A stretch of DNA of 64,000 bases from Hydrogenophilaceae bacterium. GTDB taxonomy: Bacteria; Pseudomonadota; Gammaproteobacteria; Burkholderiales; Thiobacillaceae. Below, one piece after another: positions 5,265 through 17,328 of the stretch (the first letter of the stretch is position 1; every line of letters starts with the position of its first letter). Both the position numbers and the translations under genes were made by a program. The notes under the pieces are model-generated. The model did not search any database, was not told where the DNA came from, and was given only the letters and a program-made list of their open reading frames with translations. Location of the stretch: contig JANJWO010000065.1 of assembly GCA_024709485.1 (NCBI GenBank), positions 61,670 through 125,669 of the forward strand. Direction: 5' to 3'.

Positions 5265-5354
5265 TGGCGGAAGCGGTGAGATTCGAACTCACGAATGACT
5301 TGCGTCATTGCCGGTTTTCAAGACCGGTGCATTCAACCACTCTGCCACGCTTCC
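5265..5354 (-). tRNA. tRNA-Ser (TGA anticodon), CCA encoded
   Basis: Reverse complement reads GGAAGCGTGGCAGAGTGGTTGAATGCACCGGTCTTGAAAACCGGCAATGACGCAAGTCATTCGTGAGTTCGAATCTCACCGCTTCCGCCA; acceptor, anticodon, long variable and T arms all pair. Confidence 0.93.
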
Positions 5355-5697: not shown

Positions 5698-7194
5698 ATG
5701 ATGGGCTTACTGGAAAAGATCAGGTCGATTGTCGCAGGAGGGGAGGGGCGGCGCGGCACGCCCTTCGTTTCGGTGAGGGCCACGCAGAGATGGCTGAGCA
5801 ATCTGCCGGGCGCTTCCGATTACGACATTCATCATGTTCTGGTGGAGGGGCTCGAACGCTATAACGGGGATACCCGCGGCGAGGTGCTCAAGCGCATCAG
5901 GATGCTGGGCCTGCTCGAAGAAGCGGGGCTGCCCCTGCAGGCCAGGCTGGTCGATCAGTATCTTCAAAGCCATGCGCGGAGCGAACCCGCCAGGCAGCCC
6001 TTGTGGCGCGAATGCCACTTGTTCTGGGACCAGTTGACCGTTGCCTACCTGCCATTCCTGAATCTGGCGCTGAGAGGGGGCGAGGAGTCGGGAAAGCTTG
6101 CGTCAATGGCCACGCCGATCGCCGTCAAGAGCCTGCGCTATTTTTCCTTGGGCATGCGTTGGGAATATTTGCGCGGGCGACGCCCTGCCGAATCGGCCTG
6201 GCGGCGCCTGCACAAAATCTACCGTGCCGCGGAGAGCGCCGGCATTGCCCTGGACGAGACGGACATTGCGGAGGGCGGCAAGACGAGTTGCGCGCGCGAA
6301 TATGTGATGACGCTGCTGTTCGATCTGGCCAATCCCTACGCATTCTGCCCCACCGAGATCAAATCCGCGCTCGGGCTGCTCGATGGCCTCATGGTCTTGC
6401 CCGTGCCCGAGGCGGGATTGAGGCGCGGGCTGCATACGCACATGGTCGACCTGACCGCGACAGCCGGGCCGGACAGGATCGATGAGCGCTGGGTGCCGGG
6501 CGGGCGACTGCGCTATCTCGATTTCCGTGACGTCATGCGCGAGCTTGAAGAGCATGCGAGGCGGGACCCGGGCAGCCCGCGCGCCGCGGTGGCGAAAAAG
6601 CTCGCGAGCGTGATCGGCCGCGCCGGGGCCAGCCGCCGGGGGCCGCGCAAGCCGCGCATGGGCGAAGTGAGGGCGGTTTTCGGGGCGGAGCGGGTATTCC
6701 GCATATTTTCCCCGCTGCCAGGCGCCGCCCAGGATGCCGAGTACCTCACCCTGCGCGACGAGAGCGGCGCAGGCCTTGGCTTCGTCTTGGGCGAGGCGCG
6801 GGAACTGCAGCCGGGCTGCCTGATGGCGGTCGATCGCGACGACGGCTGCGGCAACTGGCAGTTGCTGGCGGCCCGCTGGCTGAGGGAAGAGGACAGCCAA
6901 TGGCTGCTGGGCACCGAGGTGCTGTCCAGACACCCCAAGCGGGCGGACATCGAATGGGAGGCCGAAGGCGTGGGCAGGGAGGCCGCCGCTGCGCTCTTTC
7001 TGCCCTTGGCCAGCGCAAGCCAGGGGGCGACAAGCAATCTGCTGCTGCCCCGGATGGCCTACCTGGCCGGGCGCGAATTGCTGCTGCGCCAGGATGACGG
7101 CACGCGTTACCGCCTCAGGCTGGGGGACGCCGTCGAACCCCACGAATCCTGGCTGCGGGCGGAGTTCGACGTGCTGGCGCGGGAGGCCGTCTGA
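5698..7194 (+). CDS. Hypothetical protein, 498 aa
   Basis: Long ORF with plausible start; no family recognised. Confidence 0.7.
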   Translation: MMGLLEKIRSIVAGGEGRRGTPFVSVRATQRWLSNLPGASDYDIHHVLVEGLERYNGDTRGEVLKRIRMLGLLEEAGLPLQARLVDQYLQSHARSEPARQPLWRECHLFWDQLTVAYLPFLNLALRGGEESGKLASMATPIAVKSLRYFSLGMRWEYLRGRRPAESAWRRLHKIYRAAESAGIALDETDIAEGGKTSCAREYVMTLLFDLANPYAFCPTEIKSALGLLDGLMVLPVPEAGLRRGLHTHMVDLTATAGPDRIDERWVPGGRLRYLDFRDVMRELEEHARRDPGSPRAAVAKKLASVIGRAGASRRGPRKPRMGEVRAVFGAERVFRIFSPLPGAAQDAEYLTLRDESGAGLGFVLGEARELQPGCLMAVDRDDGCGNWQLLAARWLREEDSQWLLGTEVLSRHPKRADIEWEAEGVGREAAAALFLPLASASQGATSNLLLPRMAYLAGRELLLRQDDGTRYRLRLGDAVEPHESWLRAEFDVLAREAV

Positions 7195-7200
7195 GCCGGA

Positions 7201-7509
7201 TCAGTGCGTGGTGGGGTCGGGCTTTTTGCGGGAAATCTGCACCGTTTTCGCGGTCTGCTCCTGATCCGGATAAACCGGCCGGGACTCGGCCAGCCCCAGG
7301 GCGGCGCCGAGTTCGCGTTCGCGCGTGGCGATCAGTTCGAAGCAGGACTTGATCTGCTCCACGGTGTCGTCGGACAGAAAGCCCGAGGTGCCGGGCTGCG
7401 GCGTGGCGTCGCGCACCACACTGGCCAGCGTCTTGCGCATGGCGCGCAGGATGCGCTGTTCCACGCTCATTTCCTTTGCGGCGAGTTCCTTGATTTTGTC
7501 GTCTGACAT
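7201..7509 (-). CDS. Hypothetical protein, 102 aa
   Basis: MSDDKIKELAAKEMSVEQRILRAMRKTLASVVRDATPQPGTSGFLSDDTVEQIKSCFELIATRERELGAALGL...; tightly spaced behind the FNR-type gene. Confidence 0.7.
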   Translation of the reverse strand: MSDDKIKELAAKEMSVEQRILRAMRKTLASVVRDATPQPGTSGFLSDDTVEQIKSCFELIATRERELGAALGLAESRPVYPDQEQTAKTVQISRKKPDPTTH

Positions 7510-7530
7510 GTCGGTTCCTTCAAGTTTGGT

Positions 7531-9012
7531 TTACACCGCCATGGCGGTGAGTCTGGATTTCTGGAATCCTGCAGCGACGAGTTGCGCCACGGCAGGGGCG
7601 ATAAAGGCTTCGGGGCCGGCCAGGTAGAGGTCGGCCTGGCGCACCCTGGGGAATTCGGCCAGCAGTCTTTCCACCACGCCGGCGACGGCGGCATCCGCCG
7701 AATCGCGGTTGGCCATGGAAACCGGGAGATAGCGGAAGGTCTCCAATGCGTCGCTCCAGGCGCGGCACAGATTGTTCATATAGTGCCCATCCGGCGAGGA
7801 GGCGCCCCAGATCAGCCCCATTTCCTCGTTCGACTCGCGTGCCATGGTGTGCTCGAGCAGGCTTTTGATGGGTGCGAAGCCGCGGTCGAAGGCAATGAAG
7901 ATCAAGCCGCCCTGGGCGTCCTCATCGAGGAGGTAATCCCCCCAGGGGCCGTACACGGTGACACTCTCGCCGGCCTTCATGCCGTTCCACACCCGCTGCC
8001 CGAAGGCGCCGCCCAGTCCGCGCTCGACATGGAACTGCAGGTCGCGATCGTTGCAGGGGCAGCTGGCGATGGGGAATTCCGCCGAGCCGGCGGCGGTATG
8101 ACCCAGCGTGACGCTTTGCCCGGCGAGAAAACGCAGACGATGGCTGCGCGGCGTTTGCAGGTGCAGGAGCATCATGTCGTTGCTCAACTGCGTGACCGCC
8201 TTCACCCGCGCGGTCAGCTGCTGCTTGGGGATGTCGCTCGCCGAGCGGGCTTCCAGCGCTTCCAGCACCACGTCGCTGACGGCGGTGTGGCAGCACATCA
8301 AAGTGTAGCCCTGCTGTTTTTCCGGGTCGGACAGCACGTAGTCGTAGTGCTTGGTCTGCATGACCTGGCCGGAAATGACCCGCGCCTTGCACAGGCCGCA
8401 ATTGCCGCTGCTGCAGCCGTAGTTGAGCGCCAGCCCGGCTTTCAGCGCGGCTTCCAGCAGGGAGTCGTTGCCTTCGACGAAAAAGTCCCGTCCCGAGGGC
8501 TGCAGGGTGACGTGGGCCGACATGACTTTGAGCATAGCATCCATTACCGCAAGGGAATCGGGTTTTTGTTCTTCGCCCAGCACGTGGCGGAGCTCGCGTT
8601 CCAGCCATTGATCCAGCTGTTCGAGGGCGCTTTGCGCGGCGGGCGCAGCCGTCCCGGCGAGCGCCTGGATGCGCGCTTGCAGGCCGACGACGAGGGTGTG
8701 ATAGCGCTGCAGGTGCAGCTTGAGATCGTTGAGCTCCATGCCTTGCTCGAACAGGCGCTCGGCGAGCACTTCCTTGGCGGGAAGCGTGCGATCCATGATG
8801 CGGCGGCGGAAGGCCTCTTCCTTGATCTTGCGGGTCTGCTCGAACAGGCCGCTGTCTTCCAGCTTGAGGTCGGGATAAATCCGCAGCAGCTCTTCGGTCG
8901 AGATGGTGCCGTCGAAGGAGTGCAGCCCGCCGTCCTTGATGCGCTTTTGCAATGCGGCGCGCGAAACGCCGATCAGCTTGGCGGCGCGGGAGAGGGCGAG
9001 CTGCTGGGGCAT
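7531..9012 (-). CDS. HTH/coiled-coil - 2Fe-2S ferredoxin - FAD/NAD(P) ferredoxin-reductase fusion
   Basis: Trimmed start MPQQLALSRAAKLIGVSRAALQKRIKDGGLHSFDGTISTEELLRIYPDL (HTH-like); CSSGNCGLCKARV...CCHT 2Fe-2S motif; FNR-like C-terminal half (FLAGQSVTLG, FIAFDRGFAPIKSLLEH). Confidence 0.85.
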   Translation of the reverse strand: MPQQLALSRAAKLIGVSRAALQKRIKDGGLHSFDGTISTEELLRIYPDLKLEDSGLFEQTRKIKEEAFRRRIMDRTLPAKEVLAERLFEQGMELNDLKLHLQRYHTLVVGLQARIQALAGTAAPAAQSALEQLDQWLERELRHVLGEEQKPDSLAVMDAMLKVMSAHVTLQPSGRDFFVEGNDSLLEAALKAGLALNYGCSSGNCGLCKARVISGQVMQTKHYDYVLSDPEKQQGYTLMCCHTAVSDVVLEALEARSASDIPKQQLTARVKAVTQLSNDMMLLHLQTPRSHRLRFLAGQSVTLGHTAAGSAEFPIASCPCNDRDLQFHVERGLGGAFGQRVWNGMKAGESVTVYGPWGDYLLDEDAQGGLIFIAFDRGFAPIKSLLEHTMARESNEEMGLIWGASSPDGHYMNNLCRAWSDALETFRYLPVSMANRDSADAAVAGVVERLLAEFPRVRQADLYLAGPEAFIAPAVAQLVAAGFQKSRLTAMAV

Positions 9013-9013
9013 G

Positions 9014-9949
9014 TCAGGTCTGCCCGATGCGGTCGTAGTAACGCGCCCGGTACATGATGCGCGTGTGCGCGGGCGTGTCGACGAAGCCGGTGCGGTCATG
9101 CAGCACGTTGTTGCACAAAAGCCCCATGCCGGCTTCCAGCCTGTGCTGGAATTTCCAGGGCAGGTCCTGGTCGAGGAATTTTCCGATGGCGGCGACCGCG
9201 GCCTGGGTGGCGGCGTCCTGCTTCCAGGCGATCGAGCGGGTGCGCGCGGTATAGCGCAGGTGCAGCTGGCCGCCGCGCAGGGTGGAGAACACCGGGCCGG
9301 TTTCCTCGGCGCGCGCGACGCCGTTGTCATCCAGGCGCGCGGGGATGGACATAGCGTCTTCCTGCATCAAGGCGCGGATGTGTCCGGGATTCTCGTCGCG
9401 CAGCAAGAGGTAGAGGATCTCGTGGTCGAGCAGCGCATTGGCGCCGCCCTCATGGGCGGGCGCCACGCAATGCAGCATCATGCCGAGGATCTGGCGCTCG
9501 GGGCGGTTGTAATAGCCGTCGGTATGCCAGCGGATGGGGCGGTCGGTGTAGGGGATGAACTCGCCTTTCTTGCCGCCGCTTTCCGACGCCGTCAGCGTGC
9601 TGATGTCGTCCGCGTCCGACATCAGGTTGGCATCGAGATGCTCGAGCCCGAACTGCCGGCCCAGCAGGCGCGGGATGTCCTTGTCCGCGCCCGCATCCGG
9701 GCCGGCGTAGATCGCCATGTTGGCCTTGCGGCAGCGCGCCAGCAGGGCGGCGTGCTCCGCCGCGCTCAGCGCCCTGGGATCGGCGACTTCCACCACCAGG
9801 TCTTCCACCCGCTGCGGATAATCGCGCAGCTTGGCCTCGCGCCAGGCGCGGTAAGCGGCGTCATTGTCCGGATGGAACGGGCTGTTCGGATGGATCAATT
9901 CAACCTCCCGTGGCAAGCCGCGGAGCCTGCCTCGCGCCTGGGCCCGCAT
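9014..9949 (-). CDS. TauD/TfdA-family dioxygenase
   Basis: RPIRWHTDGYYNRPERQILGMMLHCVAPAHEGGANALLDHE (HxD) and distal H/R (NNVLHDRTGFVDTPAHTRIMYRARYYDR). Confidence 0.8.
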   Translation of the reverse strand: MRAQARGRLRGLPREVELIHPNSPFHPDNDAAYRAWREAKLRDYPQRVEDLVVEVADPRALSAAEHAALLARCRKANMAIYAGPDAGADKDIPRLLGRQFGLEHLDANLMSDADDISTLTASESGGKKGEFIPYTDRPIRWHTDGYYNRPERQILGMMLHCVAPAHEGGANALLDHEILYLLLRDENPGHIRALMQEDAMSIPARLDDNGVARAEETGPVFSTLRGGQLHLRYTARTRSIAWKQDAATQAAVAAIGKFLDQDLPWKFQHRLEAGMGLLCNNVLHDRTGFVDTPAHTRIMYRARYYDRIGQT

Positions 9950-10051
9950 GCCTGCGGAGAGTCGCCTTGATTGCGTGGACGCCTGGCATTTTTCTGCGAA
10001 TCCCGTGTTCTCCGTGGCTGATTGTTTCGGGGCCGCTTGTTTCAGGGCCGT

Positions 10052-10627
10052 TTAAGCTGCGTGCCTCGGGTAGAACGCCTCGACCTGCTTTTTCAGCGGG
10101 GCGATGAAGGCGGGCGCCTCGATTTCGATGATCTGGTCGGCGATCCAAGACTGGTCGCGCGCTTCCATCACTTCGCGGATGCAGTTGGCGAGGTAGCGCT
10201 TGACCACGAAATTGGGGGTTTCCGGATCGAAGTCGAAGCCGGCGTAGTCGGCCCAGCGCTGGTTGAACTTGTTGAGAATGGCTTCGACGTAGGGGTGGCC
10301 GTGGTCGCCGACGACGGTATGGATGTTGTCTTCCAGGATCTCGGCCATTTTCACGCCCAGCGCGCCGATGAGCTCGGCGCGCTCCTCGTCGTCGATGCGC
10401 CCGTGCACCATGCGGTCCACCAGATGCACCATGTAGGCGATGAGTTCGGTCAGCAGGGTGAAGCCGCGCTGCGGCGTGATGATGTCGTATTCGGCTTGGG
10501 ACAGGCTGATCACCGCCTTGTCCGCCAGCTTCCAGATGGTCACGGACAGGGCCGTGGCCTGGTCCTTCGGGCCGTGGCCGTCTTCGCCCTCGCGAAACCA
10601 GGCCGTTTTGACGCGTATGCCGCTCAT
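10052..10627 (-). CDS. Hypothetical protein, about 190 aa
   Basis: Start trimmed to MSGIRVKTAWFREGEDGHGPKDQATALSVTIWKLADKAVISLSQAEYDIITPQRGFTLL; compact spacing in the minus-strand block; start uncertain by a few nt. Confidence 0.7.
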   Translation of the reverse strand: MSGIRVKTAWFREGEDGHGPKDQATALSVTIWKLADKAVISLSQAEYDIITPQRGFTLLTELIAYMVHLVDRMVHGRIDDEERAELIGALGVKMAEILEDNIHTVVGDHGHPYVEAILNKFNQRWADYAGFDFDPETPNFVVKRYLANCIREVMEARDQSWIADQIIEIEAPAFIAPLKKQVEAFYPRHAA

Positions 10628-10628
10628 A

Positions 10629-11480
10629 TCATTCTCCTGTGGCAATCGGGCGGGCGGGATCGGTGATCCACTCGCCCCACGAACCGGGGTAGAGGCGCGA
10701 GCCGGAAAGGCCTGCCGCCTCCATGGCCAGCACATTGAGGCAGGCGGTGACGCCGGAGCCGCACAGGTGGATCACCTCGTGCGGCGCCGCGCCTTTCAGC
10801 AGGGCCTGATACTGTTCACGCAGCGCCTCCGGCGGCAGCATGGTGCCGTCGATGTCGAGGTTTTCCTCGAACGGCCAGTTGAGCGATCCGGGGATGTGTC
10901 CCGGGATCGGGTCGAAGGGCTCGTATTCGCCGGTGAAGCGGCGGTCCGGGCGCGCATCGATCAGGCGGGTCTTGCCGTCGTTCATGGCCTGCACGACTTC
11001 CTCGGCGGAAACCCACTGGCCGCGCTCGGGCAGGCAGGCGCAGGAGGCGCTGCGGATGTCCGTCGGCGCTTCCTTGGCGAGGGGGCGCTTTTCGCGCTGC
11101 CACTTGGGAAAGCCGCCATCCAGCAGGGCGACGTCGGGATGCCCGAGCCAGCGCAGCAGCCACCACATGCGCGCGGCCATGGAGCCGTAGCTGTCGTCGT
11201 AGACGACAACCTGGCGGTTGACGCCGACGCCCCATTTGCAGAGTTTCTCGGTCAGCAGCTTGGGGTCGGGCAGCGGGTGCCGGCCGGTCTTGGCGCCCTT
11301 CGGGCTGGACAGGTCGTTGTCCAGGTGTGCGTAGCGCGCGCCCGGGATGTGGCCTGCGTCATAGGCCCGGCGGCCGCCTTCCGGATCGGTCAGCGTGAAG
11401 CGGCAGTCGAAGATGACCCAGTCGGGATCACCCAAATGCGCGGCCAGTTCCTGCGTGGAAATCAGTGTGGTGTAGCTCAT
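10629..11480 (-). CDS. 3-mercaptopyruvate/thiosulfate sulfurtransferase (two rhodanese domains)
   Basis: VIFDCRFTLTDPEGGRRAYDAGHIPGARY; active-site loop CGSGVT (HLCGSGVTACLN), the MST-type signature. Confidence 0.9.
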   Translation of the reverse strand: MSYTTLISTQELAAHLGDPDWVIFDCRFTLTDPEGGRRAYDAGHIPGARYAHLDNDLSSPKGAKTGRHPLPDPKLLTEKLCKWGVGVNRQVVVYDDSYGSMAARMWWLLRWLGHPDVALLDGGFPKWQREKRPLAKEAPTDIRSASCACLPERGQWVSAEEVVQAMNDGKTRLIDARPDRRFTGEYEPFDPIPGHIPGSLNWPFEENLDIDGTMLPPEALREQYQALLKGAAPHEVIHLCGSGVTACLNVLAMEAAGLSGSRLYPGSWGEWITDPARPIATGE

Positions 11481-11564
11481 CTGCTTTTGTCTGCTTCAGA
11501 AAGAAATCGCCCGCCGCCTGGCACCTGGCGGCGGGCGATTTTCCCGGTCTATCGGCCCGGACGA

Positions 11565-11897
11565 TCAGTAGCCGCCCTTGCCGTAGGGCTTGGGCAGGCC
11601 GGCGATGCGCACGGCCTGGCGAGCGGGCTGGTTGGGGAACAGCGTGTACAGCAGGGTTTTCCAGTCCTTGCTGTCGTCTTCCTCCTTCAGGGCGATGAGC
11701 ATGTTGCGGAAATTGGGGGTCTGGCCGTGCTGCTTGTACTGATCGCGCAGCCAGTTGATGACGAACCAGTGCTCGTCGGTCAAGGTGATTTTTTCCCGCT
11801 CCGCCAGAATCGGGCAGATCTCTTCGTCGTATACAGGCTCCAACAGGAAATCCTCATCGCCGGTTTCCAGTTCTTCGCCGTTATACATGACTCCCAT
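11565..11897 (-). CDS. DsrC/TusE-family protein lacking both C-terminal cysteines (RspA-like)
   Basis: MGVMYNGEELETGDEDFLLEPVYDEEICPILAEREKITLTDEHWFVINWLRDQY...QAVRIAGLPKPYGKGGY aligns with DsrC (17 kb) ending QACKIAGLPKPTGCI. Confidence 0.9.
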   Translation of the reverse strand: MGVMYNGEELETGDEDFLLEPVYDEEICPILAEREKITLTDEHWFVINWLRDQYKQHGQTPNFRNMLIALKEEDDSKDWKTLLYTLFPNQPARQAVRIAGLPKPYGKGGY

Positions 11898-11945
11898 GAT
11901 TGATACTCCTATAAAGTTTGAGTTGAACAAAAAAGCAAATAAAGG

Positions 11946-12545
11946 CTAGACCGCCTCGGCCGCGCCGATGGCGTTGATGGACTTGTGCGGAATGAAGATG
12001 CCGCAGCCCAGTTTGCGATGCAAACCCAGGCCCTGCTGCTGCACACGGATGGCGTGTTCGATGGGCAGGCCGTGCAGCATCAGGCTGTAGCCGGACGCTA
12101 TTTTCTCACCATCGAAGAACATTTGGGGCCTGCCGCAGATGAAACGGGTTTGAATATTCATCGCGTCCAGCTGGCTCAGGATGTCGCGGGTGAAACCCAG
12201 CTCGTCCTGGCTGCCCGTGCACACGAGATGCGCATACAGGGGCGTATGCTGGGTCAGCGCCTTGACCTTGGCCTTGCCCAGGGTGAGGCTATGGCCGGCA
12301 ACCGTGAACGACTGGCCGCTCAACTTTTCCAGGTCGGCGAGCCGGGCTGCCGGGAAGCGGATCACCAGCTTGGCGCGCCGGTTCAGGAGGATCTCGCCCT
12401 TGCCGGTATCGGCCCCCTGAATCGGATGGATGCCCACGTCCGCGTCCGCCATCCAGGGCGCGATCGAAAGCAGGCCCTGGAGCAGCGCCCAGGCGTGGTC
12501 GAGGGGGAGGGTGTGCCCCTTGAGCTCGAATTGGATATCCGACAC
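11946..12545 (-). CDS. Cas6/Cmx6-type (subtype MYXAN) endoribonuclease homologue, stand-alone
   Basis: MSDIQFELKGHTLPLDHAWALLQGLLSIAPWMADADVGIHPIQG...PLYAHLV...and C-terminal Gly-rich loop QQQGLGLHRKLGCGIFIPHKSI, as in Cas6/Cmx6. Confidence 0.8.
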   Translation of the reverse strand: MSDIQFELKGHTLPLDHAWALLQGLLSIAPWMADADVGIHPIQGADTGKGEILLNRRAKLVIRFPAARLADLEKLSGQSFTVAGHSLTLGKAKVKALTQHTPLYAHLVCTGSQDELGFTRDILSQLDAMNIQTRFICGRPQMFFDGEKIASGYSLMLHGLPIEHAIRVQQQGLGLHRKLGCGIFIPHKSINAIGAAEAV

Positions 12546-12595
12546 GGCAGAGATATCGATGTCTTTCGCCTCTGCGTGGTCTTCGTATAGCCAGC

Positions 12596-12844
12596 CTATT
12601 TTGATTCTCCTTCGCTTGCCGCGCCGCCCTCGGCTTCATGGCGCGCCGCCCAGTCCAGCATGGCCTGTCCCCAGATTTTCGCCGTGTGCGGATCGATGTC
12701 GAAAATGGTGAAACGCTTGATTTCACGGATGCGCACCCGCAACGTGACGTAGTCGGCCTGGTGGCTGACGTGCTGGAGCTCGATTTCCTGCCGATACGGG
12801 GTGGCAGTGAATTTCTCCAGGTTTTTGATCTCGATTTCGTCCAT
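12596..12844 (-). CDS. Hypothetical small protein, 82 aa
   Basis: MDEIEIKNLEKFTATPYRQEIELQHVSHQADYVTLRVRIREIKRFTIFDIDPHTAKIWGQAMLDWAARHEAEGG; first gene of the divergent block. Confidence 0.65.
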   Translation of the reverse strand: MDEIEIKNLEKFTATPYRQEIELQHVSHQADYVTLRVRIREIKRFTIFDIDPHTAKIWGQAMLDWAARHEAEGGAASEGESK

Positions 12845-13014
12845 TTTCCTTTGAAAGTCAAGGCGTTAAAAAGTTCTGTGCGACTGGCCGGCTTGTTTAT
12901 ATGGGGCCGGGCATGCAAAATTCAATAATATCAAAAATGCTAATATTCCATACTTTTGCAAGTGTGTCATTGGTGTCGCCGGCTGAACAGCGCCCGAGCG
13001 GGGTGAGGGGCGTA

Positions 13015-13045
13015 TAACCCATTTGGGTAGGTGGGATTAACCCAT
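13015..13045. promoter_or_regulatory. Candidate operator in the divergent dsr intergenic region
   Basis: Two TAACCCAT boxes (13015-13022 and 13038-13045), 23 bp apart, the first inside the palindrome ACCCATTTGGGT (13017-13028). Confidence 0.35.
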
Positions 13046-13229
13046 CCTGATGATGGTGCCAAGGCGAAGCCGGGGGGTAGTATGCCACTCACGGTTTTTA
13101 TGGCGCAAACACGATTCCTTATCGTGCTGCAGTCGGGCGTTGATCCCGTCCGATTCCGCAAGTTTGAGGCGGGCCCGGACCGTAAATTCACATGTGAGTT
13201 TTGACTATTTAACTGAATGGAGAGTAAAC

Positions 13230-14522
13230 ATGGCTAAGAAAATGTATGACACGCCCATGCTCGACCAGCTGGAAGGCGGTCCCTGGCCCAGTTTCGTAAC
13301 CGGTTTGAAGCGGCTGGCCAAAGACAAGGACATGATGGTTGACCTGCTGGGTCAATTGGAGGCGTCCTACCGGGACATCAAGGGCTACTGGAAGGGCGGC
13401 ACCGTCGGCGTGTTCGGTTACGGCGGCGGCGTGATTCCGCGCTTCACCGAGCTGAAGGACGAGAACGAAAAGCCCGTCTACCCCGAAGCGGCTGAATTCC
13501 ACACCCTGCGCATCCAGCCGCCCGCTGGTATGCACTACGACACCAAGACCCTGCGCTGGATGTGCGATGTCTGGGAAAAACATGGCTCCGGCCTGATTGC
13601 TTTCCACGGCCAGTCCGGCGACATTATGTTCCAGGGCATCCGGTCCGATGGCGTGCAGGCTGCTTTTGACGAGCTGAACGAAGGCGGCTTCGACATGGGC
13701 GGCGCCGGCCCCGCGCTGCGCACCTCCATGTCCTGCGTGGGTTCCGCCCGCTGCGAAATGTCCTGCTTCGACGAGGCCCGCGCCCTGCGCACCGTCATCA
13801 ACGCCAACATCGATGACATGCACCGCCCGGCCCTGCCCTACAAGTTCAAGTTCAAGTTCTCCGGCTGCCCGAACGACTGCGTGAACTCCATCCAGCGCGG
13901 CGACATGGCCGTCATCGGCACCTGGCGCGACAACATGCGGGTGAACGAAGAGCTGGTGCAAGCCTGGGTTGCCAAGAACGGCAAGGGCGAGCTGGTCAAC
14001 CAGGTTATCAGCATGTGCCCGACCAAGGCGCTGTCGCTGAAGAAGGTCGGCGCCGAGAGCAAGGCCGACGGCGTGGTTGCGGTCAAGGTTGACGCCGAAG
14101 ACTGCATGGAAATCGACAATCACAACTGCGTGCGCTGCATGCACTGCCTGAACGTCATCCCCGGCGGCCTGCTGCCCGGCAACGACAAGGGCGTGACCAT
14201 CCTGGTCGGCGGCAAGCGCACCCTGAAGATCGGCGACCTGATGGGCACCGTGGTGATTCCGTTCATGAAGCTCGAATCCGACGAGGATTTCGAGAAGCTG
14301 AACGATCTGGGCCGCAACGCCATCGACTTCTTTGCGGAAAACGCACTGGAGCACGAGCGTACCGGCGAGATGATCGACCGTATCGGCCTGGTCAACTTCC
14401 TGGAAGGCATCGGTCTGGAGATTGATCCCAACATGATCTCCCATCCGCGCTCGAACCCCTTCATCCGCATGGATGGCTGGGACGAAGAGGCGGCCAAGTG
14501 GGAAGAGCGCAAGAGCGCTTGA
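13230..14522 (+). CDS. dsrA: Reverse-type dissimilatory sulfite reductase alpha subunit
   Basis: MAKKMYDTPMLDQLEGGPWPSFVTGLKRLAKDKDMMVDLLGQLEASYRDIKGYWKGGTVGVFGYGGGVIPRF; siroheme/4Fe-4S cysteines and ferredoxin insert; first gene of dsr operon. Confidence 0.97.
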   Translation: MAKKMYDTPMLDQLEGGPWPSFVTGLKRLAKDKDMMVDLLGQLEASYRDIKGYWKGGTVGVFGYGGGVIPRFTELKDENEKPVYPEAAEFHTLRIQPPAGMHYDTKTLRWMCDVWEKHGSGLIAFHGQSGDIMFQGIRSDGVQAAFDELNEGGFDMGGAGPALRTSMSCVGSARCEMSCFDEARALRTVINANIDDMHRPALPYKFKFKFSGCPNDCVNSIQRGDMAVIGTWRDNMRVNEELVQAWVAKNGKGELVNQVISMCPTKALSLKKVGAESKADGVVAVKVDAEDCMEIDNHNCVRCMHCLNVIPGGLLPGNDKGVTILVGGKRTLKIGDLMGTVVIPFMKLESDEDFEKLNDLGRNAIDFFAENALEHERTGEMIDRIGLVNFLEGIGLEIDPNMISHPRSNPFIRMDGWDEEAAKWEERKSA

Positions 14523-14534
14523 TCGCTGTCCTAC

Positions 14535-14558
14535 GCCGCGCGGGCAAGCCCGCGCGGC
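14535..14558 (+). promoter_or_regulatory. Intercistronic hairpin between dsrA and dsrB
   Basis: GCCGCGCGGG-CAAG-CCCGCGCGGC, perfect 10-bp stem, 4-nt loop. Confidence 0.8.
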
Positions 14559-14585
14559 TGTGTTTACATACTGGAGGTTATTAAC

Positions 14586-15656
14586 ATGGCTGATTTGCGT
14601 CCCCCGATCGAAAGCGGCGTACCCGACCCGATGCCCCTCATGCATCCGGTCATGAAGAAGAACTACGGCAAGTGGGTGTTCCATTCCCATCCCAAGCCCG
14701 GCGTGCTGTATCACCGCGCCGAAAGCGGCGATGAGGTCTGGACCGTCAAGGCCGGTACCCAGCGCCAGATGGACGTCTACACCATCCGCCTGCTGTCGGA
14801 TATCGCCGACAAGTATGCCGATGGCCACGTGCGCTTCACCACGCGCTCCAACATCGAATACATGGTGGCCGACCAGGCCAAGGTCGAGCCCCTGATCAAG
14901 GCGCTCACCGACGCCGGCTTCCCGGTTGGCGGCACCGCCAACTCCGTGTCCATGATCGCCCACACCCAGGGCTTCCTGCACTGCGACATTCCCGGCACCG
15001 ACGCTTCCGGCGCCGTGAAGGCCCTGATGGACGAGCTGTATGAAGAGTTCATCAAGTGCGAGATGCCCAACCGCGTGAAACTGTCCACCTCCTGCTGCGA
15101 GATCAACTGCGGCGGCCAGGCTGACATCGCGATCATCATGCAGCACACCAAGCCGCCGAAGATCAACCACGATCTGGTGGCCAACGTCTGCGAGCGTCCG
15201 TCGGTCGTGGCGCGTTGCCCGGTGGCGGCGATCCGTCCCGCCCTGGTGAACGGCAAGCCCTCGCTGGAAGTGGACGAGAAGAAATGCATCTGCTGCGGCG
15301 CCTGCTACCCGCCCTGCCCCCCGATGCAGATCAACGATCCCGAGCATTCCAAGTTCGCGATCTGGATCGGCGGCAAGAACTCCAACGCCCGTTCCAAGCC
15401 CACCTTCCACAAGCTGGTGGCCGCTGGCATCCCGAACAATCCGCCGCGTTGGCCCGAGGTGAGCGAGATCGTCAAGAAGATCCTGCGCGTGTACAAGGAA
15501 GACGCCCGTCCCTGGGAGCGTATGAGTGACTGGATCGACCGCATCGGTTGGCCCCGTTTCTTCGAGAAGACCGGCCTGCCGTTCACCAAGTACCACATCG
15601 ACAACTGGCGCGGTTCCCGTGCCAGCCTGAACGCCTCCACGCACATCCGCTTCTAA
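14586..15656 (+). CDS. dsrB: Reverse-type dissimilatory sulfite reductase beta subunit
   Basis: RFTTRSNIEYMV...KLSTSCCEINCGGQADIAII...CICCGACYPPCPPMQI; DsrB signatures. Confidence 0.97.
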   Translation: MADLRPPIESGVPDPMPLMHPVMKKNYGKWVFHSHPKPGVLYHRAESGDEVWTVKAGTQRQMDVYTIRLLSDIADKYADGHVRFTTRSNIEYMVADQAKVEPLIKALTDAGFPVGGTANSVSMIAHTQGFLHCDIPGTDASGAVKALMDELYEEFIKCEMPNRVKLSTSCCEINCGGQADIAIIMQHTKPPKINHDLVANVCERPSVVARCPVAAIRPALVNGKPSLEVDEKKCICCGACYPPCPPMQINDPEHSKFAIWIGGKNSNARSKPTFHKLVAAGIPNNPPRWPEVSEIVKKILRVYKEDARPWERMSDWIDRIGWPRFFEKTGLPFTKYHIDNWRGSRASLNASTHIRF

Positions 15657-15675
15657 GCGGCGCGCTCGGAGGAAA

Positions 15676-15714
15676 TCGTGCCCGCCGGTCTGCCGGCCGG
15701 TGGGCATGATTTTA
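15676..15714 (+). promoter_or_regulatory. Intercistronic hairpin between dsrB and dsrE
   Basis: ATCGTGCCCGCCGG-tctgccgg...CCGGTGGGCATGAT, about 14-bp stem with wobble pairs. Confidence 0.65.
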
Positions 15715-15743
15715 AATAGAACTAGAGATTGCATGGATAAAGC

Positions 15744-16136
15744 ATGAAAATCGCGATTATGGTTAATGAGGGTCCCTACACCCATCAGGCAACCGATTCT
15801 GCTTACCAATTTGCCAAGGCAGCCATTGCCAAAGGCCATGAGATTACCCGGGTGTTTTTCTATCACGACGGCGTCAACAATGGCACCCGTCTGACGGTGC
15901 CCCCCCAGGATGATCGTCATATCGTCAACCGCTGGTCCGAAATGGGCACCCAGCACAATATCGATCTGGTGATCTGCATTGCCGCGGCTCAGCGCCGTGG
16001 CCTGCTCGACGAGAACGAAGCCAAGCGCCAAGGCAAGAATGCCGACAACATTGCGCCCGGCTTCCGTATTTCCGGTCTGGGGCAGCTGGTGGAAGCCGGC
16101 ATTCAGTCCGACCGCCTGGTTGTGTTTGGCGACTGA
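15744..16136 (+). CDS. dsrE: Sulfur transfer protein DsrE
   Basis: MKIAIMVNEGPYTHQATDSAYQFAKAAIAKGHEITRVFFYHDGVNNG...LVICIAAAQRRGLLDE; conserved sulfur-carrier Cys region. Confidence 0.96.
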   Translation: MKIAIMVNEGPYTHQATDSAYQFAKAAIAKGHEITRVFFYHDGVNNGTRLTVPPQDDRHIVNRWSEMGTQHNIDLVICIAAAQRRGLLDENEAKRQGKNADNIAPGFRISGLGQLVEAGIQSDRLVVFGD

Positions 16137-16156
16137 CAGTAACAGGGATTAGGAAA

Positions 16157-16549
16157 ATGTCTGACGAAATGGATTTCGAAGAAGGCGGCACGGTTAAAAA
16201 GTTCATGTTCGTGAACCGCAAGGCCCCCTATGGCACCATCTACGCGCTGGAAGGCCTGGAAGTCGTGCTGATTTCCGCTGCGTTCGATCAGGACGTGAGC
16301 CTTGCCTTCGTGGATGACGGCGTGTTCCAACTGGTCAAGGGCCAGAAGACCGACGGCGTCGAGATGAAGAACTTCTCGCCCACCTATCGTGCGCTGGAAG
16401 GCTACGACATCGAGAAGCTGTACGTGGACCGCGAGTCCCTGGAAGCGCGTGGTTTGACCGAAGATGATCTGCTGGTTGATGTCCAGGTCATGTCCGCCGC
16501 CGAGATGGGCGACATGATGGCCCAGCAGGATGTCTTAATCAGCTTCTAA
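16157..16549 (+). CDS. dsrF: Sulfur relay protein DsrF
   Basis: KKFMFVNRKAPYGTIYALEGLEVVLISAAFDQDVSLAFVDDGVFQL; between dsrE and dsrH. Confidence 0.95.
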   Translation: MSDEMDFEEGGTVKKFMFVNRKAPYGTIYALEGLEVVLISAAFDQDVSLAFVDDGVFQLVKGQKTDGVEMKNFSPTYRALEGYDIEKLYVDRESLEARGLTEDDLLVDVQVMSAAEMGDMMAQQDVLISF

Positions 16550-16562
16550 GGGGAACCTCAAA

Positions 16563-16859
16563 ATGCTGCATATCGTGAACAAATCCCCATTCGACACCGG
16601 CTCCCTTGCCAGCGTGTTGCGTGTGGCCAAGAAAGACGGCGGCGCCGTGTTGCTGATCGAAGACGGCGTCTATGCCGCCGTCAAGAGCAGCGCAACCGAA
16701 GCCAGTCTGAAAGCAGCCGGCATGCCGGTGTATGTACTGCAAGCTGACGCGGACGCCCGTGGCCTCCAGAGCAAGCTCATGGAAGGCGTGAACATGGTCG
16801 ACTACGGCGGGTTTGTGGATTTGGTGGCGGGGCACGACAACGTGCAATCCTGGCTGTAA
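16563..16859 (+). CDS. dsrH: Sulfur relay protein DsrH
   Basis: MLHIVNKSPFDTGSLASVLRVAKKDGGAVLLIEDGVYAAV; DsrH/TusB family. Confidence 0.95.
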   Translation: MLHIVNKSPFDTGSLASVLRVAKKDGGAVLLIEDGVYAAVKSSATEASLKAAGMPVYVLQADADARGLQSKLMEGVNMVDYGGFVDLVAGHDNVQSWL

Positions 16860-16893
16860 GTTTTTTAATGATTCTTTCGAGAGGAGTTGAATC

Positions 16894-17226
16894 ATGGCAA
16901 TGGATGTAAACGGCGTTTCTATCGAGACCGATGAAGAAGGTTTCCTGGTCAACCTGAGCGACTGGAATCCCGATGTCGCATTGGAGCTGGCCAAAGGCGA
17001 AAGCATCGAGCTGACCGAACAGCACTGGGAAGTGATCAACTTCCTGCGCGAGTACTACGACGAGTATCAAATTGCGCCTGCCGTGCGCGTGCTGACCAAG
17101 GCGATCGGCAAGAAGCTCGGTCCGGACAAGGGCAACAGCAAGTACCTGTACGACCTGTTCCCCTACGGCCCCGGCAAGCAGGCGTGCAAGATCGCCGGTC
17201 TGCCCAAGCCCACCGGCTGTATCTAA
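16894..17226 (+). CDS. dsrC: DsrC sulfur carrier
   Basis: MAMDVNGVSIETDEEGFLVNLSDWNP...QACKIAGLPKPTGCI; both C-terminal cysteines present. Confidence 0.97.
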   Translation: MAMDVNGVSIETDEEGFLVNLSDWNPDVALELAKGESIELTEQHWEVINFLREYYDEYQIAPAVRVLTKAIGKKLGPDKGNSKYLYDLFPYGPGKQACKIAGLPKPTGCI

Positions 17227-17291
17227 GCAGGCAATCGCTGTTTGCCTGCCAAGCGGCAATGAAGCGGTGGCCCTCCTGCGGGCTGCCGCTT
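17227..17291 (+). promoter_or_regulatory. Two successive hairpins between dsrC and dsrM
   Basis: GCAGGCAA...TTGCCTGC (17227-17249) and AAGCGGTGGCCC-tcctgc-GGGCTGCCGCTT (17262-17291). Confidence 0.7.
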
Positions 17292-17328
17292 GCTCCGAAT
17301 GTCCATTAAACGGAAGACCGACTGACGC

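Follow-up and report, generated by a model that had tools for sequence, protein, structure and literature searches.

A Cas6-family protein and a DsrC paralogue lacking the catalytic cysteines in a gene block accompanying the oxidative dsr cluster

Why should a gene for a protein of the Cas6 family, otherwise known from CRISPR (clustered regularly interspaced short palindromic repeats) systems, stand opposite the genes for sulfur oxidation? The question is raised by a 64-kb stretch of DNA from a Hydrogenophilaceae bacterium (the window; coordinates count from its first letter). As described by a first-pass annotation, eight compact minus-strand open reading frames (ORFs) diverge here from the dsr operon; all of them are open within 7201..12844 and lie head-to-head with dsrA (start 13230), whose cluster is the canonical oxidative dsrABEFHCMKLJOPNR followed by cysG. 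The core of this block would comprise the genes for a DUF6967 protein, Cas6, a DsrC paralogue (RspA, which we take to be the name of this subgroup) and a TauD-type dioxygenase, with a sulfurtransferase-like protein (MST) and a 191-amino-acid (aa) protein added in the betaproteobacterial form. This core almost certainly serves the oxidative Dsr pathway as a dedicated companion module. To the favoured explanation as a whole, in which the module carries a Cas6 that works on cellular RNA and an RspA that acts as a reporter, we assign a probability of roughly 45%.

Association of the block with dsrA

The neighbourhood and co-occurrence analysis suggested by the first-pass annotation was carried out on 274 gammaproteobacterial genomes drawn across the class (in the GTDB sense, Betaproteobacteria included), with dsrA counted as present when a complete or clear partial match below 1e-30 was found. 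The Cas6 profile PF09559 was detected in 91 and dsrA in 94 of these genomes. Both were present in 87, only Cas6 in four, only dsrA in seven and neither in 176 (Fisher p = 1.9e-57), and the genomes with both span 56 families. Cas6 was divergent from dsrA and head-to-head with it in all 141 stretches holding both genes (141/141), with a median gap of 712 bp. Because of this co-occurrence and invariant placement, a functional tie of the core block to Dsr-dependent sulfur oxidation is strongly supported. Among the seven genomes with dsrA only, the contig breaks off at dsrA or shortly upstream of it in four (G207, G110, G070 and G079) and ends inside the block, after TauD, in G123; G238 is 55% complete, and G211 contains the region upstream of dsrA without the block. 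All four Cas6 genes of the Cas6-only genomes lie near contig ends, and two of these genomes (G067 and G186) carry DsrK above its cut-off.

Joint inheritance of a whole island could have left the block beside dsr by passive conservation, and a gene order common to many loci agrees with this. However, dsr-positive genomes have kept Cas6 where it is unlinked, 42 kb away in G109 and on other contigs in G226 and G097, each time among different and unrelated neighbours, so that linkage drag alone is no explanation. The spread of the co-occurrence over many families also speaks against a passive origin, as does the fact that many dsr-negative relatives keeping the block were not seen, and we consider it very improbable. 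At one unlinked locus (L193) Cas6 is followed on the same strand by a gene that by eye resembles a YeeE/YedE-type sulfur transporter.

To follow the composition of the block, one genome per species (85,462 species) was searched with four aligned Cas6 sequences as query, which gave 514 confirmed Cas6 relatives; gene counts refer to the best 80 of these 514. Wherever the contig reaches far enough, each of the 80 is part of a dsr locus. With the 191-aa protein found in 78, dsrA in 77, RspA in 75, TauD in 73, DUF6967 in 72 and MST in 67 of them, conservation of DUF6967-Cas6-RspA-MST-orf191-TauD far exceeds chance, and a complete genome of the window's family (L256) holds these genes in the same order beside dsr. 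The fusion gene with helix-turn-helix (HTH) and FNR parts (10/80) and the 102-aa gene (8/80) are lineage-specific additions outside the conserved module. Since these two occur in few relatives, the proposal of one eight-gene module was right in part only: the core is not confined to very close relatives, as the two additions nearly are.

Nor need the eight genes form one transcript, as 102 bp separate the 191-aa gene from TauD and a strong hairpin occupies the spacer from rspA to the MST gene (Table 1). The rspA gene most likely starts at ATG 11897, giving 110 aa, while the TauD start is uncertain and may be an internal codon. Profile searches backed the earlier assignments to Cas6, the DsrC family, rhodaneses, TauD and a 2Fe-2S/FAD/NAD reductase. 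Of the supposed orphans, the 82-aa gene proved to belong to DUF6967, and the other, given as 190 aa, is indeed without a known family but is one residue longer and widely kept. A 498-aa plus-strand ORF without a family (5698-7194), found beside the block only in close relatives, converges on it, and a minus-strand tRNA gene lies at 5268-5354; a tRNA was the sole match in an Rfam scan of 5000-27000.

Table 1. Features of the block and of the facing dsr operon in the window
Feature	Position	Strand	Basis
DUF6967 protein, 82 aa	12596..12844	-	PF22295, E=3.5e-27
Cas6/Cmx6-family protein, 199 aa, GTG start, dsr-linked clade	11946..12545	-	PF09559, E=9.8e-58
RspA-like DsrC paralogue without catalytic cysteines	11565..11897	-	PF04358, 4e-29; C-terminus ...GLPKPYGKGGY
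GC-rich hairpin between rspA and MST gene, 16-bp stem, loop of 8	11502..11543	-	spacer fold -40.4 kcal/mol
Two-domain rhodanese/3-mercaptopyruvate sulfurtransferase-like protein (MST)	10629..11480	-	PRK11493, 6e-41; active-site loop CGSGVTA
191-aa all-helical protein, no known family	10052..10627	-	no Pfam/NCBIfam match; predicted structure
TauD/TfdA-type 2-oxoglutarate dioxygenase	9014..9949	-	PF02668, 2.6e-16
HTH-2Fe-2S-FNR fusion, lineage-specific neighbour	7531..9012	-	PF00111, PF00970, PF00175
102-aa protein, lineage-specific neighbour	7201..7509	-	no family; in 8/80 relatives
Divergent control region shared with dsrA	12845..13229	.	conserved blocks ATATAACCCATTTGGGTAGGT...ATTAACCCATCCTGATGATGGT and AATTCACATGTGAGTT
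dsrABEFHC, partner operon; runs on via dsrMKLJOPNR to about 26221	13230..17226	+	
dsrB-dsrE spacer hairpin, 19 bp	15671..15714	+	alifold z -6.7 in Thiobacillus-type loci
dsrC-dsrM spacer hairpin, 12 bp	17261..17292	+	alifold z -9.7 (Thiobacillus-type), -7.3 (Gamma)

The Cas6-family protein and its CRISPR relatives

With 195.7 bits against PF09559 (cut-off 26.7) and 143.8 bits against TIGR02807 (cut-off 98.9), the window Cas6 is a member of this family, and its closest solved structure is a type I-B Cas6 (PDB 8fcj_B). The dsr-linked proteins share with type I-MYXAN/I-B Cas6/Cmx6 the fold family, R63, Q169 and the C-terminal Gly-rich loop QxGxGxxRxxGCGxFxP, but differ in having dsr instead of cas neighbours, in forming a clade of their own and in a variable catalytic-type His. 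In a maximum-likelihood tree of 57 dsr-linked and seven cyanobacterial plasmid homologues, a small sample of the CRISPR side, a branch (100/99) splits the two groups. R63, Q169 and the Gly-rich loop are retained in both, the loop being among the most conserved parts of the dsr-linked proteins; R57 and E115 are invariant and W31, G138, H187 and K188 near-invariant in the dsr group only. These seven were the only plasmid homologues found, and six of them adjoin cas3; phage homologues were not found. Around the homologue on a Gloeobacter morelensis plasmid (L242), the flanks of 4 kb contain no annotated cas3 but a gene of the PAPS-reductase family along with several hypothetical proteins.

The Cas6/Cmx6 annotation and the resemblance to type I-B Cas6 would suit an orphan processor for CRISPR arrays elsewhere, placed near dsr by chance or hitch-hiking. 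Cas1, however, was undetected in the window's genome, which is 83% complete (CRISPR arrays beyond the window lay outside the analysis), and the association of Cas1 with Cas6 across the 274 genomes was not significant (42/91 vs 62/183, p = 0.064). The neighbours in informative dsr-linked loci are dsr and sulfur genes. On the grounds of Cas1, of gene context, including the invariant divergence from dsrA, and of the separate clade in the tree, an orphan CRISPR Cas6 was rejected as the least credible of the alternatives.

The block had also been called undescribed, and this holds as far as the open-access literature reaches: no paper linking Cas6 to dsr was found in a search that left most subscription journals outside, and the main text of two papers on Dsr evolution (PMC10504309 and PMC11406059) does not mention CRISPR. 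The plus strand of the window agrees in gene content and order with the cluster of the Allochromatium vinosum type, but the divergent companion genes are not among the members named for that cluster in the papers found.

Companion proteins and the breadth of the module

RspA has the PF04358 fold and core and the KQ/RQxxxxAGLP motif in common with the DsrC/TusE family. Unlike true DsrC, which carried a Cys within the last three residues in 118 of 120 cases, none of 145 RspA paralogues did so. Both functional C-terminal Cys of the DsrC sulfur carrier are absent from the tail of the window copy (QAVRIAGLPKPYGKGGY), which, as in the sampled members, terminates in KGGY. This KGGY stands where DsrC has TGC[IV] (11565-11580), and its GG recalls the tails of sulfur-carrier proteins, with no homology implied. 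Two papers mention cysteine-less or additional DsrC homologues, one in the Solemya symbiont (PMC4287430), the other in Thiodictyon (PMC5944118).

The AlphaFold2 model of DUF6967 (predicted local distance difference test, pLDDT, 87.9) contains four strands and a helix, and R36, E41, R44, T46, D51, A55 and W65 are invariant. A PC4-like fold had been guessed ahead of the structure search, in which the top PDB matches were PUR-alpha and then the PC4-like SP_0782/EF_3132 (probability 0.99-0.5, TMq about 0.6, not significant at E >= 0.2). DUF6967 is predicted to have a PUR/PC4-like single-strand nucleic-acid-binding fold, sharing with these proteins a predicted beta4-alpha topology but, at Foldseek E-values that are not significant, no shown sequence similarity. 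PUR/PC4 folds bind single-stranded DNA. DUF6967 also occurs without adjacent Cas6 or dsr in three genomes (L014-L016), in one of which (L014) a gene that by eye is DsrE-family-like lies nearby.

The remaining core proteins include two that look like intact enzymes. The PRK11493 match of MST falls below the equivalog cut-off, and its catalytic loop C240GSGVTA is 97-99% conserved, with C240 present in 99% of relatives; the iron triad of TauD (H142-x-D144 and H284) is conserved at 96-97%. A role of TauD in taurine catabolism was considered improbable, since the gene accompanies dsr across many lineages. The model of the 191-aa protein (pLDDT 87.1) consists of six helices and had no PDB match at E<=0.001, and neither this protein nor the 102-aa protein matched a Pfam or NCBIfam family. 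The HTH-FNR fusion contains Fer2, FAD and NAD domains and a marginal HTH part (E=0.03).

A draw confined to the phylum contained PF09559 in three genomes only, all of this gammaproteobacterial class, even though over 40 genomes from other classes in the draw were positive for dsrA. In four of the dsrA loci from other classes, presumed to be alphaproteobacterial (L258-L261), TauD, a 72-aa gene and DUF6967 diverge from dsrA. From this distribution, TauD with DUF6967 or the 72-aa gene looks like a broader layer and Cas6-RspA like a gammaproteobacterial layer; one locus (L012) unites both with TauD, the 72-aa gene, DUF6967 and Cas6. Kinship of the gammaproteobacterial 72-aa gene with DUF6967 is unsupported, and both are found side by side in L012 as well as in the presumed alphaproteobacterial loci. 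Among the gamma loci L157-L241, a 72-aa protein is encoded directly upstream of Cas6 in 69. The surroundings of Cas6 repeatedly include a 78-aa protein (39 loci), a TPR-like protein some 243 aa long (34 loci), a protein some 119 aa long and a second 2OG-Fe(II) oxygenase. None of the unnamed proteins (72, 78, about 243 and about 119 aa) had a Pfam match over the cut-off.

Instead of RNA control, the module might help to mature or protect the Dsr enzymes or their cofactor (siroheme/siroamide, persulfide handling), with Cas6 and DUF6967 turned into protein-binding scaffolds and TauD, MST and CysG doing the chemistry. A CysG-like siroheme synthase is next in at least three of the four presumed alphaproteobacterial divergent blocks (one confirmed), cas6-rspA runs into dsrN-dsrR in two loci (L200 and L219), and the catalytic residues of TauD and MST are retained, all of which would agree with such a function. 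The strong conservation of the nucleic-acid loop of Cas6 and the predicted nucleic-acid binding of DUF6967 are at odds with it, and we regard it as unlikely.

Spacer hairpins, the divergent region and a possible role in RNA

Consensus folding, tested against column-shuffled alignments, gave alifold z values for the dsrC-dsrM spacer of -9.7 in Thiobacillus-type loci, -7.3 in Gamma and -2.3 in near relatives, of -6.7 for dsrB-dsrE (Thiobacillus-type) and of -3.8 to -6.1 for the divergent region. When sequences were folded singly, z lay below -2 for some 77% of the spacers between dsrC and dsrM, for roughly half or more of those between dsrA and dsrB and for few dsrM-dsrK and dsrK-dsrL spacers, and the rspA-MST spacers of 69 relatives had a median z of -3.6 (mononucleotide shuffles). 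A DsrC-type gene thus precedes a stem in both operons. Few T residues lie 3' of the dsr stems, which are therefore not typical terminators. The two longest operon-spacer stems of the window (dsrB-dsrE and rspA-MST) are partly alike (AAATCG...CCCGCCG) and are the only such pair. No Cas6 recognition repeat shared among the dsr spacers was found; the stem sequences vary, and with stems so different a role as Cas6 substrate is a proposal and not a result.

The divergent region contains deeply conserved operator-like blocks (ACCCATTTGGGTAGGT, AACCCATCCTGATGATGGT and AATTCACATGTGAGTT). Of the betaproteobacterial divergent regions, 59/78 hold GGGTAGGT; the spacing between the longer TGGGTAGGT and the dsrA start hardly varies within the Thiobacillus-type group, and CCCATGGGTAGG is present in three gamma divergent regions. 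These blocks would be expected if RspA and DUF6967 controlled transcription at the divergent promoter with Cas6 as an accessory, as would the fold match of DUF6967 to PUR/PC4 (E not significant) and the binding of A. vinosum DsrC to DNA upstream of dsr, reported in work cited in PMC5944118. On the other hand, the blocks could serve an unlinked response regulator, and transcriptional control leaves unexplained that the most tightly associated member belongs to an RNA endonuclease family. We hold this account to be quite improbable.

The explanation we favour is that of a module transcribed divergently from dsrA across the shared control region, in which a Cas6-family protein that left CRISPR would now work on cellular RNA; for an action of Cas6 on RNA we see even odds. 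Its likeliest substrates would be the conserved stem-loops after dsrA, dsrB, dsrC and rspA; by binding or cutting at the base of these stems, Cas6 would determine the amounts of DsrAB versus DsrC, although the full scheme of hairpin processing is doubtful. RspA, as a DsrC mimic unable to carry sulfur, would dock on the DsrC partners DsrEFH, DsrAB or DsrMK and signal to the nucleic-acid-binding pair Cas6/DUF6967 how far the pathway is occupied, while TauD and MST would adjust substrate or sulfur supply. The first-pass annotation had suggested regulation or RNA processing linked to Dsr. Its Dsr link is borne out by co-occurrence and placement; the RNA or regulatory role is supported only indirectly, by the intact Gly-rich loop of Cas6, the predicted fold of DUF6967 and the conserved dsr and rspA hairpins, and the redox element it included, the HTH-FNR fusion, is lineage-specific.

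Several observations weigh against a role in RNA. At the His position of the N-terminal DHA motif, 131 of 170 members have H and 34 have N, so that RNA cleavage is not assured. The dsr spacer stems share no common sequence motif, the rspA-MST hairpins of some relatives (L184 and L176) are followed by T-runs and look terminator-like, and the hairpins can be explained as ordinary intercistronic stabilisers. Moreover, no Cas6 or RspA match was found in the four presumed alphaproteobacterial clusters for oxidative Dsr (rDsr), which implies that the pathway can run lacking both.

Oxidative Dsr is a principal microbial route of sulfur oxidation and its accessory genes are usually taken as complete, but a Cas6 relative that is nearly always found with dsrA in Gammaproteobacteria, together with a DsrC look-alike incapable of carrying sulfur, presents a testable missing part. 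The dsr-linked Cas6 proteins are probably mislabelled as "CRISPR-associated" in annotations, which is a warning for automatic CRISPR typing based on TIGR02807/PF09559 matches. We tentatively propose that a CRISPR-type RNA endonuclease was domesticated in a common ancestor of the gammaproteobacterial rDsr oxidisers and that, with RspA and DUF6967, it may provide sulfur-state-responsive RNA processing. If true, this would be a clear case of a CRISPR component recruited into core metabolism, and RNA processing by a domesticated Cas6 would amount to a previously undescribed kind of regulation.

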